DNA of 35,660 nucleotides, taken from NCBI GenBank assembly GCA_947467125.1, contig CANIGN010000003.1, positions 1 to 35,660 of the forward strand. The letters are read 5' to 3'. A model generated the notes under the pieces. That model was not told where the DNA came from and searched no databases. It saw nothing but the letters and a program-made list of their open reading frames with translations. Position 1 is the first letter of the stretch. Each line of letters begins with the position of its first letter. The stretch comes from Bacteriovoracaceae bacterium (GTDB taxonomy: Bacteria; Bdellovibrionota; UBA2428). The position numbers and the translations under genes are program-made. Positions 9,538-26,839 of the stretch are shown in pieces.

Positions 9538-11232
9538 GTGCAAGTCCTCAAAGGAAAAGGTTCCTCTCCTGGTTTTGCGTTAGCGCCTGCCTTCATTCTT
9601 AAAAACACAAATCTTCAATTTTCGCATGAGCAGATATTCGATGACATCCACGAATCAAAACGCTGGAAGGCTGCGCACTCACAAGTCGTTCATGACCTGA
9701 GTGAACTTCAAAAAAAGTATTCTCAAAAAGGCCCCCAAGAAAGTGCTGAAATCGCTGAGGCCCACCTCATGATGGCTCAAGATCCAGAATGGATTTCAAA
9801 TATTGAAAGCTTCATGGGTCAAAAACATCAATGCGAATACTCGGTCAACAAAGCAAGCGAAGATTTCGCCAAAATGATCGAGTCTTTGGACGACCCCTAT
9901 CTTCGTCAACGTGCTCAAGACATACGTGATGTTGCGCGAAGAATTTTACGAGCTCTCGATGAACCCAATTCTCATGAAGAAAAAATAACGGGCGACCATA
10001 TTCTTGTTGCCGAAGACCTTCTTCCTTCTGAACTCCTTTCTCTTTACAGTCCTCAACTTAAAGGACTGGTTTTACAAAAAGGAAACCCTACTTCTCACAC
10101 AACCATTCTCGCTCGAACTTTTGAAATCCCTACCATTCTCACCGTGAATGGGGTTATGGAAAAAGTTCGCGCTCACGACGAAATCGCCGTGAGTGGAATG
10201 AGTGGCATCGTCACCATTAATCCAGACGCCTCCGAAAAGAAAAACATTCAAGATAAAATACAAAGAGACCTTTTTGAAAAAGAAGAATTAAAAAATTACA
10301 TCTCTGTTAAATCTGTTACTCGTGATGGCGTGGCCATTGAAGTTGCCTCCAACCTCAACAGCGCTCACGACTTAAATTTTGCTCTCGGAAAAGGCACCGA
10401 AGGAATCGGCCTCTTTCGTACCGAGTTTCTTTTGATGGATCGAAGCGCAGCTCCTAGCGAAGAAGAGCAGTACCAAGTTTATCGGAAAGTCATTGAATCT
10501 GTCTTTCCTCACAAAGCGATCATTCGAACTTTTGATATCGGTGGGGACAAGCAAGTGAATTATCTCAACTTGCCTAAAGAAGAAAATCCCTTTCTCGGCC
10601 TCAGAGGAATTCGCTATTGTCTTAAAAACATCGAACTCTTTAGAACTCAAATCAGAGCTCTTTTGCGAGCCGCTCAACACGGAAATCTCGGAATCATGAT
10701 TCCGATGGTGACCAAAGTAGAAGAAGTTTTGGAATTTAAAAACCTTCTTAAAAAGTTTCAAATCGAACTTTTAAACGAAGGAAAAAAACTCGAAAAATCT
10801 CCTGAAACGGGCATCATGATCGAAGTTCCCTCTGTGGCGATGATTGTCGATCAACTCGCTTCTCATCTTGATTTCTTTAGCATTGGAACCAACGATCTTG
10901 TTCAATACCTTTGTGCAGCAGATCGCATGAATAGCAACGTGGCTGATCTACACGACGCCTATCACCCTGCTGTTTTAAGAACGCTCAAATTGATTTCTGA
11001 TGGCGTCAAAAACACTTCTTGTTGGCTGGGAATGTGCGGAGAAATGGCTGCAAAATACGACTACCAGCCTCTTCTTTTGGCTCTTGGATTCAAAGAACTC
11101 AGCGTTTCTCCAGGCGCTGTCCTTCGAACTCGAAAGCAGATTCTTTCCCTCGACATGGAATCCTGCCACAAGATCCTTCAAAAGGCGCTTTTAGCAGACA
11201 GTTCCGAAAGCCTTAAAGCCGCGCTTTCTTAG
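9538..11232 (+). CDS. ptsI: Phosphoenolpyruvate-protein phosphotransferase (PTS enzyme I)
   Basis: Phospho-His region 'GNPTSHTTILARTFEIPTIL', PEP-binding 'GIGLFRTEFLLMD', 'MIEVPSVAMI', 'FSIGTNDLVQYLCAADR', 'LGMCGEMA'. Start taken as GTG 9538 after HPr stop; track ORF starts 9490 overlapping HPr. Confidence 0.93.
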   Translation: MQVLKGKGSSPGFALAPAFILKNTNLQFSHEQIFDDIHESKRWKAAHSQVVHDLSELQKKYSQKGPQESAEIAEAHLMMAQDPEWISNIESFMGQKHQCEYSVNKASEDFAKMIESLDDPYLRQRAQDIRDVARRILRALDEPNSHEEKITGDHILVAEDLLPSELLSLYSPQLKGLVLQKGNPTSHTTILARTFEIPTILTVNGVMEKVRAHDEIAVSGMSGIVTINPDASEKKNIQDKIQRDLFEKEELKNYISVKSVTRDGVAIEVASNLNSAHDLNFALGKGTEGIGLFRTEFLLMDRSAAPSEEEQYQVYRKVIESVFPHKAIIRTFDIGGDKQVNYLNLPKEENPFLGLRGIRYCLKNIELFRTQIRALLRAAQHGNLGIMIPMVTKVEEVLEFKNLLKKFQIELLNEGKKLEKSPETGIMIEVPSVAMIVDQLASHLDFFSIGTNDLVQYLCAADRMNSNVADLHDAYHPAVLRTLKLISDGVKNTSCWLGMCGEMAAKYDYQPLLLALGFKELSVSPGAVLRTRKQILSLDMESCHKILQKALLADSSESLKAALS

Positions 11233-11293
11233 GCTTTTATCTCTCCTCCTCCGCCTCAATTCCCCCTTTACCCGCCCATGAAGCTAGTCTATG

Positions 11294-11322
11294 TTCATTT
11301 GCACAACACACGCTGGGATAAA
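11294..11322 (+). promoter_or_regulatory. Putative rpsB promoter (weak -35 TTCATT 11294-11299; extended -10 TGG-GATAAA 11314-11322)
   Basis: TGn immediately before GATAAA (4/6 match), 17-bp spacer; predicted start ~11329-11330 coincides with the 5' foot of the leader's closing stem. The -35 match is weak. Confidence 0.4.
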
Positions 11323-11329
11323 AATTGAA

Positions 11330-11413
11330 ATAATCCGAGCGTTTGGATCAAGCCAAGCGGGCCTCCGCAAAAGCTTCCCAAGCGTTAAACTCAGCGGAGG
11401 AACATCGGATTAT
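11330..11413 (+). ncRNA. Structured rpsB 5' leader candidate (cis-regulatory RNA)
   Basis: P1: ATAATCCGA (11330-11338) with TCGGATTAT (11405-11413), 9 bp. P2: CGTTTGG (11340-11346) with CCAAGCG (11353-11359), 7 pairs incl. one G-U, 6-nt loop. P3: CCTCCGC (11362-11368) with GCGGAGG (11394-11400), 7 bp, enclosing a small GCTT/AAGC hairpin (11373-11383). Confidence 0.7.
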
Positions 11414-11476
11414 AGAAAACAAAGTCGCAGCAAGATCGAAAGCTCAAGCATTAGCGAACTTAAAAAAGGAAAAAAC

Positions 11477-12337
11477 ATGGCTACACAAATCACAATGAAA
11501 GACCTCCTCGAGGCAGGCGTTCACTTCGGTCACCAAAAGAGCCGCTGGAACCCAAAAATGAAACCTTACATCTTCGGAGATCGTAACGGTATTTACATCA
11601 TCGACCTTCAAAAAACTGTTCTCTTAACTCGCGAAGCTTTAACATTCGTGACTCAACTTTCTGCAAAAGGAAAAAAAATCCTTTTCGTTGGAACAAAATC
11701 ACAATGTAAAGACGTCGTGAAAGAAGAAGCAGAACGCGCAGGTTGCCCTTACGTAACAGAGCGTTGGTTAGGTGGAACTCTTACGAACTTCCCCACTATT
11801 CAAACATGTCTCGATCAAATGCAACAAATGGACGACAAAATCAGCTCAGGAATGGCTGATCAATTGAGCGCGAAAGAGCGTTCTGCGTTCGACAAAGAAC
11901 ATGAGCGTCTCTTGCGTAACTTAGGGGGCGTTCGTCACATGAAAGACAAACCCGGCGCGATTTTCATTATCGATCCAATGAAAGAACACAACGCAGTTAA
12001 AGAAGCGAAGAAATTGGGAATTCCTATCATCGCGATCACAGATACAAACTGCGATCCAGATGACGTTAGTTTCGTGATTCCTGGTAACGACGACGCTCTT
12101 AAATCAATCAAGCTTTTTGCAGCAGCTGTTGCAGACGCTTTCCTTGATGGCGCTCGTATCCACGAAGAAAAAATCCGTGCTTTCTCTGACAAACGTGAAA
12201 GCGCTCCTGTAGCAGCAGCTCCTAGCGCTCCCGCTATCAGCAAACCTTCAGAAGAATCAACAACAACTGACCGCGAAGGCCGCACAATCAACGTTGAAAA
12301 ACGTCGCAGCATTCGTTCATCAGACGAAAACAACTAA
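11477..12337 (+). CDS. rpsB: 30S ribosomal protein S2
   Basis: 'MATQITMKDLLEAGVHFGHQKSRWNPKMKPYIFGDRNGIYIIDLQKT'; SD AAAAAAGGA upstream. Ala/Pro-rich C-terminal tail. Confidence 0.98.
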   Translation: MATQITMKDLLEAGVHFGHQKSRWNPKMKPYIFGDRNGIYIIDLQKTVLLTREALTFVTQLSAKGKKILFVGTKSQCKDVVKEEAERAGCPYVTERWLGGTLTNFPTIQTCLDQMQQMDDKISSGMADQLSAKERSAFDKEHERLLRNLGGVRHMKDKPGAIFIIDPMKEHNAVKEAKKLGIPIIAITDTNCDPDDVSFVIPGNDDALKSIKLFAAAVADAFLDGARIHEEKIRAFSDKRESAPVAAAPSAPAISKPSEESTTTDREGRTINVEKRRSIRSSDENN

Positions 12338-12349
12338 GAGGAACAACAC

Positions 12350-13003
12350 ATGGCGATTACAGCATCATTAGTAAACGAACTCCGACAAAAAACCGGAGCC
12401 GGCATGATGGATTGCAAAAAAGCACTTGAAGAAAGTGCGGGCGATCTGGAAAAAGCTGTCGAAGTTCTTCGTAAAAAAGGACTTTCAGCGGCTGCTAAAA
12501 AAGCAGGTCGTATTGCAACAGAAGGAGCGATCGGTTCTTACATCCATATGGGTGGAAAAATCGGCGTTCTTTTAGAAATCAACTGTGAAACAGACTTCGT
12601 TTCTCAAAACGATATCTTTCAAGGTCTCGTAAAAGATATTTCTCTTCACATTGCAGCGAACAAACCACAGTACGTTCTTCCTGAAGAAATTCCTGCGGAT
12701 GTTCTTGCAAAAGAAAAAGAAATTGCACGCGACCAAGCTCTTCAGTCAGGAAAACCTGCTGCAGTGGCAGAAAAAATCGTCGAAGGAAAGATCCTCAAGT
12801 ACTACGACGAAGTTTGCTTAATGAATCAAGCTTACCTCAAAGATCCCGAGAAAAAAGTATCCACAATTATCCAAGAAATGGTTGCTAAAATCGGTGAAAA
12901 CATCAAGGTGCGTCGCTTCGTTCGCTGGGAACTCGGTGAAGGCCTTGAGAAAAAATCAAATGATTTTGCAGCAGAGGTAGCAGCACAGGCAGGGTTGAAT
13001 TAG
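12350..13003 (+). CDS. tsf: Elongation factor Ts
   Basis: '[38 protein letters not shown]', '[15 protein letters not shown]'. Confidence 0.98.
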
Positions 13004-13016
13004 CATAAAGTCTGTA

Positions 13017-13856
13017 ATGACACCTGCGACTCAGAAAACAGCTTATAAACGAATCTTACTCAAACTCTCTGGTGAAGCCTTAGCAGGCAAAAGAGAGTTT
13101 GGGCTCGATTCTGCAACCCTCGATTTTATGGCCGAACAAATTAGAGCTGTAAGAGAGATGGGCATTCAAGTCGCCGTCGTCGTCGGCGGTGGCAATATCT
13201 TTCGCGGAATTCAAGGATCAGAAAAAGGCATGGATCGCTCAACGGGCGATTACATGGGAATGCTTGCAACAGTGATCAACGCTCTTGCTCTGCAAGATGC
13301 TCTTGAGCGCCACAACATCGATACGCGCGTGCAAAGTGCGATTCGCATGGAGCAAGTGGTAGAGCCGTACATTCGTCGTCGCGCCACTCGCCACCTTGAA
13401 AAAGATCGTGTGGTTATTTTTGCAAGTGGAACAGGTAATCCTTACTTTTCAACAGACACTGCGGCTGCTTTGAGAGCCATGGAAGTTGAAGCTGATATTC
13501 TTGTAAAAGCCACCAACGTCGATGGTGTTTATGATTCTGATCCACGAAAAAACGTCAAAGCCAAACTTCTCAAAAACATCAATTACATCGACGTCCTCAA
13601 TCGTAATTTAAAAGTTATGGATAGTACGGCGATTAGTTTGTGTATGGATAACAAACTTCCCATTCACGTTCTCAACATTCGCACTCCCAATGCGATTGCC
13701 GAATTTTTAAAAGGCAAAAAAGTGGGAACAACCATCACAGTCGACTGCAAGAGTGATTTCGATGGCGAAAATGACTACACTGGAAAGAACGCTTCTTCGA
13801 GTGTTCACAAAAAACAAACCTCAAAAGAGCCTGCAAAGGCGAGGAGAAAAAAATGA
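13017..13856 (+). CDS. pyrH: UMP kinase
   Basis: '[15 protein letters not shown]', '[13 protein letters not shown]', '[20 protein letters not shown]', '[12 protein letters not shown]'; extra basic C-terminal tail ending [15 protein letters not shown]. Confidence 0.97.
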
Positions 13857-14413
13857 GCGAAGAAACAGTTAAAATTACAATTCAAGATACCCGTGAAAAA
13901 ATGGATAAGTCCGTTCAGGCTCTTAAGAACGAACTTGTTAAAATTCGCACAGGAAGAGCAAGCCCCTCACTCGTCGATAGCGTTCGAGTAGACTATTACG
14001 GCACGCCCACTCCCCTCAAACAAATTGCTCAAGTGGCAGTACCCGACGCTAAAACATTACAAATTTCTTGCTGGGATCAGAGCGCTATTCCTTTGGTGGA
14101 AAAAGCTATCGTTGCAGCAAACATTGGACTTACTCCGCAAGTAGACGGCAAGTTAATTCGCCTCAACATTCCTGCTTTGAGCGAAGACAGACGTAAAGAA
14201 ATCGTGAAAACGGTCAAAAAACTTGGCGAAGATTGCAAAGTTCACGTTCGAAATGCTCGTCGTGACGCAAACGAAATCATCAAAAATGACAAAAGCCTTG
14301 GTGAAGATCTTCAAAAGAAAAACCAAGATCAAATTCAAAAATTAACTGACGAATGCACGACTCAAGTCGATGCCATTATCGAAGCAAAGAGCAAAGAGGT
14401 GCTCACAGTTTGA
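13853..14413 (+). CDS. frr: Ribosome recycling factor
   Basis: '[43 protein letters not shown]'; ATGA overlap with pyrH stop. Confidence 0.98.
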
Positions 14414-15186
14414 GCTCACCTAAAGCGCTTTGGCCTCAGCACGTGGGCATCATCATGGATGGAAACGGTCGCTGGGCGAACACTCGTGGCTGGAAGAGAG
14501 TTCAAGGACACATTCAAGGCGCAGACCTTGTTATGTCTGTTGTAGAAGAAGCCATTTCTCTAAATCTCAAAGCGCTTTCTCTTTTTTGTTTTTCAACTGA
14601 AAACTGGAAACGACCAGATGATGAAGTCAACTTCCTCATGGATTTGATGTACAAGTTTGCGGAATCCCAAATGGAGAGAATGCACAAACTCAACATCAAG
14701 ATTCGTGTGTTTGGACAATACCATCGAGCCCCTGAAAGACTCAGAAAACAACTCGATATTGCTTCTGAACTTACCAAAAACAATACAGGCCTTTCGCTTA
14801 ACTTTTTAGTGAGCTACGGCGGCCGACTCGACATTCTAAAGGCCGCTCAAGAAACAGCCACTCTTGTTCAAGAAGGCAAGATCAAGCCCGAAGACATTAC
14901 AGAAGAACTTTTCTCTCAGCATCTTTATACCAAAGACGTGATTGATCCCGATTTGATCATTCGAACAAGCGGTGAATTTAGAATTTCCAACTTTATGCTT
15001 TGGCAATCAGCCTATGCTGAATTTTATGTCATTGATAAACTTTGGCCTGAGTTTAAACGCGAAGACTTACGAAAAGCGTGCGAATATTTTTCAAATAGAG
15101 ATAGACGGTTTGGCGGAGTGAATACCACCACAAATCAACCAACTTCTTTACAAGACCCCAAAAAAGAAACGCCTCCTCATGTCTAA
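14410..15186 (+). CDS. uppS: Isoprenyl (undecaprenyl) diphosphate synthase
   Basis: 'PQHVGIIMDGNGRWANTRGWKRVQGH', 'LFCFSTENWKRP', 'DLIIRTSGEFRISNFMLWQSAYAEFYV'. TTG start at 14410 overlapping the frr TGA proposed. Confidence 0.95.
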   Translation: MSSPKALWPQHVGIIMDGNGRWANTRGWKRVQGHIQGADLVMSVVEEAISLNLKALSLFCFSTENWKRPDDEVNFLMDLMYKFAESQMERMHKLNIKIRVFGQYHRAPERLRKQLDIASELTKNNTGLSLNFLVSYGGRLDILKAAQETATLVQEGKIKPEDITEELFSQHLYTKDVIDPDLIIRTSGEFRISNFMLWQSAYAEFYVIDKLWPEFKREDLRKACEYFSNRDRRFGGVNTTTNQPTSLQDPKKETPPHV

Positions 15187-22452: not shown

Positions 22453-24090
22453 ATGAACTTTAATATGAAAATATTTTGGACAGTTCCTTCCCTCAAAACT
22501 CTAACATTAAGCTTTTTAGCAATCATTGGACTTACTCAGCAAAGCTTAGCCGCCGGCACTCATCCTTCTAAAAATGAGAATTGCCGCATTTTACTGAGCT
22601 CCCTTAGAACCGTTACCAACGAGGTTCTTCCCTCCGAAGAAATGAGTCGCTATATATCTCTTCATCGCTGGGCTCGAAACTGGAGAGGAGATCCGATTCC
22701 TCGCGAAGTTCAAATCGGAAAAAACCTCATCACAGAACTCGAAGATGCAATGGTCAACGACAAGTTAACTGTTGCTGTCAATATTGCTCGCACCATGATT
22801 GATGGAGCCGCAATTTCTTTTCGTCAACACGAGCAAGTGACTGCCGCCATGAAAGAGGTTTCAAACCTGCGAGCTCAAATTGAAATCCAAGGAGAAACAC
22901 TTGAGCCTGCCTTTCTCTTAAATCTCCAAGAAAAGTTTTTAGAGAATTTTCAAATTACTGAAAGCACTCACAAAACCAACTCTAAAGTTGCAAAAGAAGT
23001 TCACAGCCTCAACAAGCTCCTTCAAGACGATTACCTTATTTCAAAACAAGAAGTTCTCGATCGACTTTTTAGCATCTACGAACTTCTCGAAACATACGAC
23101 CTCATGCTTATCCAAAACATTGGTCGAAACTTTCCTCTTTACGAATTAGCAAGTCGATACTTGGGCGCTGACTTTGAACACCGCTTTGATTTGTTTTCTG
23201 TTCGCGAAGAAAATCCCAAGAACGAAGTAGAAGAAAAAGCGACTGACAACCAAATCATCGAAGTGACAAATCCAGGATATGAAAAAAGAAAAAAAACATG
23301 GGAAGACGCACGAACATTCCTTCTCAAAGAAGTGGGATGGAGTAAAAGAAAAGGCATTCGCTACCCTAGCCTCAACCAAGGAAACCCAGAAAAAGGTGAG
23401 ATCGAAAAATTTTACGACCAAAATATTTTTGCTCGCGAAGCACATGTTAAAAAAAGCCTCAGACAAGAACTCGTTGCAACCGCAACTCGACAAGCACTTG
23501 ACCTGACCTTGATCGTTCCTCTCGTAGAAGGAATTGTAAAAATTATTGCCAAAAAAGGCCCTGGGTTTTCATCCTTCTTTCGCAACATGATCTTGCTTGA
23601 TGAAAGAGCGACACTTGTTCAGCGAGTCCGTGAAATCGCAGAAAGCAAAGATCCCATTGACCTTAAAGCAAGCCAGCTTCTTGCTTATGCAGCAGACGGC
23701 GCAACAGGCGTAGAGTTTTTGCACATGTTTGCCGCCGATGCAGACCTTACAAGTATCAATACATGGACTGAATTGAGAAATCTTTTTTCTTCAGATTCAC
23801 GTTTTATCAAGTATAAAGAAATGATCGAAAAAGCAGACGAAGCAGCTTCCAAAAGCGGCCCCGTTAGTATCGCAAGTGTGCGCATGACAAACTCAAAAGT
23901 TGTGGGCCTCGTTGTAGGGGTTCCCCTTTGGACAAAAATTGCTCCGATATTATGGAAAGCAGTCGCCATTTACTTCGTCAACAACGCTCAACTTTCTCAA
24001 GAAGACTTAGAGAAAAAACTCAAGGAGCTTGAAGCTGAGCTTGAGAAGTATCAAGTTGAAGAAAACTCAAAACAAGAAAACCCTCATTAA
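22453..24090 (+). CDS. Exported protein of unknown function (545 aa)
   Basis: Signal peptide (MKIFWTVPSLKTLTLSFLAIIGLTQQSLAA); AAGG SD upstream; long alpha-helical body, no recognised family motif. Confidence 0.75.
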   Translation: MNFNMKIFWTVPSLKTLTLSFLAIIGLTQQSLAAGTHPSKNENCRILLSSLRTVTNEVLPSEEMSRYISLHRWARNWRGDPIPREVQIGKNLITELEDAMVNDKLTVAVNIARTMIDGAAISFRQHEQVTAAMKEVSNLRAQIEIQGETLEPAFLLNLQEKFLENFQITESTHKTNSKVAKEVHSLNKLLQDDYLISKQEVLDRLFSIYELLETYDLMLIQNIGRNFPLYELASRYLGADFEHRFDLFSVREENPKNEVEEKATDNQIIEVTNPGYEKRKKTWEDARTFLLKEVGWSKRKGIRYPSLNQGNPEKGEIEKFYDQNIFAREAHVKKSLRQELVATATRQALDLTLIVPLVEGIVKIIAKKGPGFSSFFRNMILLDERATLVQRVREIAESKDPIDLKASQLLAYAADGATGVEFLHMFAADADLTSINTWTELRNLFSSDSRFIKYKEMIEKADEAASKSGPVSIASVRMTNSKVVGLVVGVPLWTKIAPILWKAVAIYFVNNAQLSQEDLEKKLKELEAELEKYQVEENSKQENPH

Positions 24091-24091
24091 A

Positions 24092-26839
24092 TCAAGCAGC
24101 TACTTTTTTAGGTTCGAGAGTTGTACGTATACCAACTTCAATATCTTTAGCATTCTCTAAAATAAAGCATGTTTCTTTAGATAAAAACGCTTTCATTTCT
24201 TGATTGATCTTTTCTAATTTTCGAATGTTCATACTGTTGGCATCACAACAAACAATTCCAACTTTAGCATATCGAGATAAATCAGAAGCATCTGGCGCCT
24301 CTAAGCATGGACGAGTGTGTAGAAAAATATAATCGTACTGAAGACTTAATTCGATTAATAAATCCTTAAGGTTTTGTGACGCTAATCTATAGACAGAAGG
24401 AACCTGAAGAGGATCTCCAGTGATGACATCTAACCCCTCATTGACCTTAAACGGATAAATATTAACTTGTTCTTTATGCTGATAAAGTTCACTTACCCCT
24501 CCATTGAGAGGAGCTCCAGTGATTTTTTGAATTGAATTATTCGTCAAATCAGACTCTAAAATAAGAACCTTTTTTCCCGTACTTCCAAAAAAAGCACCCA
24601 AGTTCAGGGAAATAATTGCCGATTTCAAGGAATCCTCACTTGAAGTAAAAAGAACGACTTTACCTGCCAATGAGGAGAAAATGTTTTCCAATTTAATTCC
24701 CATACGCAAGTAACTCAAGTCAGTTACGCCATCTACCAGAGAACCTTCCTGAAATAAGTTACTTTTAGTTGAAGGCACAGCTCCTAAGACAGAATTGCCA
24801 CGCTCCTCAAATGATTTAATTGTTGTTAAAACTGGATCACCTAACTCTTTTAAAAAAGAGACACAAAATCCCACAAAAAAGCTTAAAAATAAAGAAATCA
24901 ATAAAAATAAGTAAAGAGAAACTGGTTTCTTTTCTTCTATAGGATCATAAAAAAAACTAATCTTTTTTCGACCCTTAAACTCAACTATTTCCATTTTCAA
25001 AAGAGAGTTTTTTAAAAGTTCTAAAGTTGACTGATTCGTTTTAATATAATCGCTCAACTCTGCTAACTGAGCTTCTTTTGCCGTCTTATCATTGAGCATA
25101 AAAGTTAACTCATCTAAAGCTTTACTTAACTCTAGGACCTTTGCCTCATAGAAAGAATTCTCACCTTTAATTTTCTCTAACGTTTCCCTTTGTTGGTAAA
25201 GTGAAGACTCATCGGGCATATACAAGTCATCAACCTTTAAGTCTTTTAAAGAAATATTTTTTTTCTTTTCTACTTCTTTAGTCGCTTTCTGTAAACTTTC
25301 CGAAACTCGCCTAGCTATGACACTATCCTCATCAACTCCTTGAATCTTTAGTTGATTTTGCAAATAAGCCATATTCGAAATATCTTGAATAGTGGTTGAA
25401 TAGTAATTTTTTTCTATCTTGCTCTTCTCATTTAGTAAATCAAGTTTTTTTTCAATCCCTGAAATCTTTTCGTTAAGCTTTGACTCAAAAAAAGCATTGC
25501 CTTGAATAGCATTCTTTGCCGACTGAACTTTATCTTTTAAATCCCTAATAATTTCTTTACTTATTATAGGGATTGAACTTGATTCATTTGGCTTCGTATC
25601 ACCATTTTCTGGAAAAGTTATATTTAGTGAATTTTTTAATTCTACGCCTAACTCTCGTGTCCCAATCTTTTTATTTAAATAAGAATTAATTTCGTCAAAA
25701 ACATTGTTCAACTCTGAAACCTTTTCTGAATTGAAAGACGAATTTTCATTTTTTCCAGGGACTTTAGATGGACTTTTGGAATTCTCCAAATACTTTAAAG
25801 TATTCGCTAATGAATTAGACAAATTTTTAAAGACAAAACTGTCCTTTTCTATCCCTTGTGCCCTCAACTCACTTTTTTGTTTTGATAAGCCCGCAAGCTC
25901 TTGACTTAACCCGTAAGCGTCGTCATCAGCGCTTCTTATGCCTTTAATCTTTTTTTCGATATCAGTAAGCTTTTCTTGAAACTGTGATTCTAAAACCTTA
26001 TTTCCACTTATAGCCATTTTTGTGGCTTGTAATTGACTTTGCAAAGAATAGATAACCGCCGTATCGACAAGCGGAATAGATTGAGAAAGCTTCAATTTTT
26101 TATCATTACTTTCATTTAAAGTTTTTTGAACATTATCAACCTTTTCTTCGATTATTTTTCGAGCCGCAACAAGCTCTTCCTGATCATTCACTGCAAAATA
26201 GTCCGCAAGAAGTTTCGTAACTTTTTCTGAGTAATTCTTTAATAAAACGGGGTTTTCGTCGTTCAATAACACAGAAAAATTAGATTGAGTGTTTTTTTTA
26301 TTCCTTGACGCTTCAACACTAAAAGTCATTCGACTATTTAAAAAAGACTTTATCTTTTCTTTTGTTCGATCCTCGAAAGAAGCTGAGTTAACTCCTTTCA
26401 AATCAATACCAAATATTTTTGCAATATCAGCATCACCTAAAGCTGCTTTATAGCAAAAACTTAAAAAAGATTCTGACTTCAAACTAGCCAAAGCCTTACC
26501 AACATCAACATCACTTGAATCAATTCCAGTATTAACAGTCATATCCAAGGCGCTAAAAAGAGTATTGTTTTTGGAGTTATTATATATTGCTGTAATATTT
26601 CTTTCGTACCATGTTCCTTTGCAAGCATATAAAAAAGCCAATGCGACATAGAATAAAATAGCTGTAATAAAAAGGAGTTTTTTATGTCTAAAACCTTTCC
26701 GAAGAAAATCACTTACATCAAGATACTCTTCAGAATCATTGTTGTTTTCTTTAAATAGACCTGGTCCAACAACTTCAAATTGTCCAAGAGAACTATGCTC
26801 CGCACTTTTTCTAAGTTCTTGAGTATCTAACTTCTTCAC
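24092..26839 (-). CDS. Wzc-like polysaccharide co-polymerase / BY-kinase-related protein with degenerate nucleotide-binding motifs
   Basis: N-terminal TM (LLFITAILFYVALAFLYA), long coiled-coil region, second TM (LYLFLLISLFLSFFVGFCVSFLKELGDP), C-terminal MinD/ParA-like domain. GTG start at 26839. Confidence 0.75.
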   Translation of the reverse strand: MKKLDTQELRKSAEHSSLGQFEVVGPGLFKENNNDSEEYLDVSDFLRKGFRHKKLLFITAILFYVALAFLYACKGTWYERNITAIYNNSKNNTLFSALDMTVNTGIDSSDVDVGKALASLKSESFLSFCYKAALGDADIAKIFGIDLKGVNSASFEDRTKEKIKSFLNSRMTFSVEASRNKKNTQSNFSVLLNDENPVLLKNYSEKVTKLLADYFAVNDQEELVAARKIIEEKVDNVQKTLNESNDKKLKLSQSIPLVDTAVIYSLQSQLQATKMAISGNKVLESQFQEKLTDIEKKIKGIRSADDDAYGLSQELAGLSKQKSELRAQGIEKDSFVFKNLSNSLANTLKYLENSKSPSKVPGKNENSSFNSEKVSELNNVFDEINSYLNKKIGTRELGVELKNSLNITFPENGDTKPNESSSIPIISKEIIRDLKDKVQSAKNAIQGNAFFESKLNEKISGIEKKLDLLNEKSKIEKNYYSTTIQDISNMAYLQNQLKIQGVDEDSVIARRVSESLQKATKEVEKKKNISLKDLKVDDLYMPDESSLYQQRETLEKIKGENSFYEAKVLELSKALDELTFMLNDKTAKEAQLAELSDYIKTNQSTLELLKNSLLKMEIVEFKGRKKISFFYDPIEEKKPVSLYLFLLISLFLSFFVGFCVSFLKELGDPVLTTIKSFEERGNSVLGAVPSTKSNLFQEGSLVDGVTDLSYLRMGIKLENIFSSLAGKVVLFTSSEDSLKSAIISLNLGAFFGSTGKKVLILESDLTNNSIQKITGAPLNGGVSELYQHKEQVNIYPFKVNEGLDVITGDPLQVPSVYRLASQNLKDLLIELSLQYDYIFLHTRPCLEAPDASDLSRYAKVGIVCCDANSMNIRKLEKINQEMKAFLSKETCFILENAKDIEVGIRTTLEPKKVAA

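Follow-up and report, generated by a model that had tools for sequence, protein, structure and literature searches.

The rpsB-tsf locus

The window, a 35,660-nucleotide stretch of contig CANIGN010000003.1 from a Bacteriovoracaceae bacterium, carries rpsB, which encodes ribosomal protein S2, followed by the elongation factor Ts gene tsf, presumably as the second gene of the same operon. Genes for an amino acid kinase family protein, ribosome recycling factor and undecaprenyl diphosphate synthase come next in order, and from this order we infer that the amino acid kinase family gene is pyrH. The Pfam S2 domain matches the ordinary product starting at 11477. On the upstream side the neighbor is a PTS enzyme I gene ending at 11232, and directly upstream of rpsB, on its coding strand, lies the structured element analyzed here (Table 1). 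Upstream of its ATG, the rpsB reading frame continues without a stop for 63 codons (an ORF from the ATG at 11291, covering 11291-11476), and for 38-57 codons in three members of the same family (G001-G003).

Two further observations concern the surrounding genes. The frr ORF (13853-14413) and the uppS ORF (14353-15186) overlap by ~60 nt when counted from the first start codon, and uppS probably starts further downstream than listed. Two long ORFs, at 22453-24090 (+, 545 aa) and 24092-26839 (-, 915 aa), have no Pfam match at E<=0.001.

Table 1. Features of the rpsB leader and its genes, in window coordinates, with the basis for each.
Feature	Position	Strand	Basis
Conserved 5' motif ACACACG, leader start	11306-11312	+	ACACAC invariant in 16/16 aligned leaders of other genomes
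P1 helix, 5' strand CGCTGGG	11311-11317	+	7/7 standard pairs with 11390-11396, conserved register
Pseudoknot helix, 5' strand ATAATCCGA, inside P1 just before P3	11330-11338	+	9 Watson-Crick pairs with 11405-11413
P3 long hairpin, 8 + 4 + 4 bp (11339-11346/11378-11385; 11350-11353/11373-11376; 11357-11360/11365-11368)	11339-11385	+	Folding energy versus shuffles
First hairpin CGTTTGG/CCAAGCG, shorter alternative form of P3	11340-11359	+	Nested minimum-energy fold
Second hairpin CCTCCGC/GCGGAGG, window-specific, overlapping P1 3' strand and GGAGG	11362-11400	+	Complement comparison with 38 leaders
P1 helix, 3' strand CTCAGCG	11390-11396	+	Pairing with 11311-11317, covariation
Conserved GGAGG after P1, distinct from the rpsB Shine-Dalgarno	11396-11400	+	GG(A/C)GG in 16/16 aligned leaders
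Pseudoknot helix, 3' strand TCGGATTAT, outside P1	11405-11413	+	Pairing, covariation
AAGGA, probable Shine-Dalgarno of rpsB, outside the leader structure	11466-11470	+	Sequence
rpsB, ribosomal protein S2 (286 aa), regulated gene	11477-12337	+	Pfam PF00318, E 2e-91
tsf, elongation factor Ts, presumed second gene of the operon	12350-13003	+	Pfam PF00889, E 1.4e-40

A pseudoknotted leader upstream of rpsB

The original prediction drew a 9-bp closing stem around two 7-bp hairpins, forming a compact three-way junction at 11330-11413. Every string that it named is present at its position: both strands of the 9-bp helix, those of the first hairpin (CGTTTGG 11340-11346, CCAAGCG 11353-11359) and those of the second (CCTCCGC 11362-11368, GCGGAGG 11394-11400), with 63 nt between 11413 and the rpsB ATG (11477). 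CCAAGCG also has a second copy at 11378-11384. Among nested folds of 11325-11480, the drawn one has the minimum energy, at -38.4 kcal/mol (z -2.2, with 6/200 shuffles equally good). The exact 84-nt interval, which was picked to suit the helices, gave -31.0 kcal/mol and z -4.0 (1/1000 dinucleotide shuffles equally good), and wider frames gave z -2.2 to -3.1 (11300-11416, z -2.2; 11300-11480, z -3.1). Taken across frames, these scores show structure beyond chance.

The helices thus stood, but the three-way junction did not hold up as the conserved fold. We found that the leader extends over ~11306-11413, so that its start lies 24 nt before that of the predicted interval, which therefore omits ACACACG and the 5' strand of a 7-bp helix, P1. 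Because these lay outside the interval, the drawn topology was incomplete and the 9-bp helix was mistaken for a closing stem. It is a pseudoknot helix: P1 encloses the long hairpin P3, and the strand joining P1 to P3 pairs with sequence 3' of P1. P3 itself (11339-11389) folds at -19.6 kcal/mol, with z -3.0 and 15/2000 shuffles equally good, and once P1 forms, its long form is favored over the first hairpin. The second hairpin is not conserved, being present in no relative that we examined.

The rpsB upstream regions of relatives share a common layout, in which ACACAC, the 7-bp P1, a GGU strand and a variable hairpin P3 are followed by the P1 3' strand, GGAGG, and an AACC that pairs back to GGU as a pseudoknot. 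The motifs and helices of the window occur in the same order, and the pattern ACACACG-N65-90-GCGGAGG occurs once in the window and in 0 of 100 shuffles. Two family members, G001 and G002, have the same pseudoknot and P3 layout as the window, with compensating changes; their GAATCCGGT / ACCG(T or A)GATTC aligns with the window's 5' pseudoknot strand. A MAFFT alignment of these three sequences misaligns the 3' half, so the helices were compared segment by segment. The class sample compared comprised four genomes, and identity to the nearest S2 proteins was 64-68%. Some relatives were deposited under Bdellovibrionales, Oligoflexia or unplaced Proteobacteria, and one leader (G017) matches that of record JAIXWV010000016.1 exactly.

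Covariation of P1 and the pseudoknot

Covariation across rpsB upstream regions, which the original prediction had proposed as a check, proved strong. P1 and the pseudoknot, scored together over 44 distinct sequences, were paired in 93.6% of cells, and 132 cells were changed on both sides, versus 38.7 in shuffles. The covariation score was 0.652 versus 0.230 shuffled; none of 500 shuffles attained any of five covariation measures, and the signal collapsed when partners were slid by 1-3 columns. P1 alone was paired in 99% of cells, with both-side changes at 7/7 pairs, although this alignment (A3) was made with a model containing P1, which biases the P1 counts towards P1; the pseudoknot was absent from that model. 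A structure-free MAFFT alignment (A1) gave the same covariation picture.

This pattern also bears on the open reading frame above the rpsB ATG, which could in principle encode a real in-frame N-terminal extension of S2, with the helices incidental. The run of codons free of in-frame stops is what speaks for such an extension. Conservation tracks base pairs, however, the upstream peptides of G001-G003 are unlike that of the window apart from the RNA motif, the S2 domain is accounted for by the product from 11477, and in-frame open lengths across the phylum range from 0 to 72 codons. We therefore rejected the extension as wholly improbable, and judged the open frame to be without sign of coding and due to chance.

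Membership in the S2-leader family

We built a covariance model (R1) from 16 other rpsB leaders, with the window excluded and P1 as the only structure. Within the window it gave a single match, at 11304-11417 (17.6 bits, E 0.019), and in the whole 1.17-Mb genome this leader was the only match at E<=10, with E 0.63 there. Such a score would be weak alone; together with the rpsB-adjacent position, the exact helices and the spaced motif pattern, we regard it as convincing. The same model matched the rpsB leader of E. coli K-12 (E 3.3e-5), which Rfam names t44 at 83.5 bits. Among 291 sampled genomes of the phylum, 51 had a match, one each, scoring 27-81 bits versus 17.6 for the window, and all 19 matches with known rpsB coordinates lay just upstream of rpsB. 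Of 80 named rpsB loci spread over many phyla, 38 had matches at E<=0.5, the weaker of which may include chance ones, and 37 of the 38 were upstream of rpsB.

A scan of the window with Rfam, at the gathering threshold and relaxed to E<=10, found no t44 or rpsB match. The leader is below the gathering threshold for both RF00127 and RF01815 and is filed under neither entry, while leaders of relatives gave sub-threshold matches to both. With t44 (RF00127, the E. coli tff / rpsB leader) the window shares the order ACACAC, P1, GGAGG plus pseudoknot, and R1 matches both; it differs in lacking an Rfam-level match, in its loops and in the loss of AACC. The rpsB sRNA model RF01815 falls exactly on the leader of G001 and on other phylum leaders at 26.6-32.7 bits (gathering 40), whereas the window itself has no match.

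The architecture is that of the published rpsB motif, a pseudoknotted element upstream of rpsB that is defined by architecture (Meyer et al. 2009, PMC2704228). As far as the available portion of that description goes, the window shares with it the position upstream of rpsB, P1, a P3 of variable length, and a pseudoknot between the P2-P3 joining strand and the 3' extension of P1; P2 is short or absent in many groups. The window differs in its long P3 (8+4+4 bp), in a pseudoknot of 9 pairs versus ~5, and in a changed core. The lineage of the window, probably Bdellovibrionota, is not named in that portion of the description (PMC2704228).

The suggestions that the element lies outside known features and possibly forms a distinct class were therefore not borne out: the published architecture is present, and a model built from other leaders matches it. 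A new ribosomal protein leader class with a nested three-way junction would fit the minimum-energy nested fold and the missing Rfam match, yet P1, ACACACG, GGAGG and the pseudoknot are all arranged in the known order and register, a model of known-type leaders matches, and the second hairpin is missing from relatives. Given the conserved P1 and pseudoknot, a new class is very improbable and already largely refuted. We conclude, with a probability of roughly 88%, that the rpsB-tsf mRNA leader contains, at 11306-11413, a divergent representative of the widespread rpsB-motif / S2-leader family, which is already known. The copy in the window is of this known family and is not a new three-way junction.

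Peculiarities of the window copy

The core of the pseudoknot is nearly invariant GGU/ACC in sampled leaders; in the window it is CGA/UCG, with pairing kept. The GGU/AACC letters, conserved in the leaders sampled though no part of how PMC2704228 defines the motif, are accordingly absent from the window. This loss and the low model score might indicate a leader in decay, in which structure persists and S2 binding has been lost, and one genome of the same family (G003) has no recognizable leader at all. The copy nevertheless retains P1 (7/7), the pseudoknot (9/9 Watson-Crick) and a stable P3, and pairing survived the core change, so we consider decay unlikely.

The second peculiarity is CCTCCGC, an exact 7-base complement to GCGGAGG that occurs in the window only; the other 38 of the 39 leaders compared have 0-5 bases. 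Because the resulting hairpin overlaps P1, the two are mutually exclusive. The nested fold has -32.0 kcal/mol versus -28.0 for P1 plus P3, before the 9-bp pseudoknot, of uncertain net gain, is added. By nearest-neighbor energies the nested fold may be as stable as the pseudoknotted one, and energy does not separate the two.

One reading of this is a two-state switch in the window's lineage, with CCTCCGC having evolved to pair with GCGGAGG and break P1. S2 would then choose between near-equal, exclusive folds, with P1 formed or broken, and the pseudoknot core would likewise have been rewritten through compensating changes. The complement's restriction to the window and the near-equal energies, a rough estimate, are in its favor. 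Against it, the hairpin is seen in no second genome, the complement may be a by-product of the long P3, within which CCGC (11365-11368) also pairs, and pseudoknot energies are not reliably calculable. A switch is thus a doubtful reading, and quite unlikely in our view.

Absence of the leader elsewhere in the phylum

In G003 (L004 / L143), an unfiltered search upstream of rpsB found no recognizable S2 leader, and the leader may have been lost or replaced there. That genome has a short GC-rich hairpin, GTCGGGC-CTCTAACC-GCCCGAC, before the ribosome-binding site. The ACACAC/GGAGG leader is also absent upstream of rpsB in several families of the phylum (for example L116, L127, L133 and L139). The phylum may thus have seen its loss or replacement on more than one occasion.

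Proposed mechanism and significance

In E. coli, S2 present in excess acts via the leader, with S1 assisting, to repress translation of rpsB-tsf, and the rpsB ribosome-binding site is outside the leader structure (PMC10931766). The window resembles E. coli in this respect, as its AAGGA is also outside the structure. Returning to the family reading, an S2-autoregulatory mRNA leader, as the original prediction had proposed, is by homology the best explanation of the element. By analogy with E. coli, S2 in excess of free 30S subunits would bind the pseudoknotted leader, probably with S1 as its partner, and the bound leader would block translation of rpsB and also lower that of tsf.

A terminator scan of 11200-11480 found nothing above threshold, which argues for control of translation rather than attenuation. 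A consensus promoter scan of the same region also found nothing above threshold. We make no claim for a promoter at TTTACC-17-TATGTT (11267-11295): in relatives, the top -35/-10 scores before ACACAC barely beat shuffles (mean 5.7 versus 5.2).

With this copy, the known S2 leader reaches into a deep lineage missed by the Rfam models. The changed core suggests that GGU/ACC can be replaced by other pairs, and hence that pairing rather than particular letters is needed there. R1, built from 16 sequences, detects leaders of this kind across many genomes of the phylum and across several further phyla, which leaves room to widen Rfam's coverage of the family.
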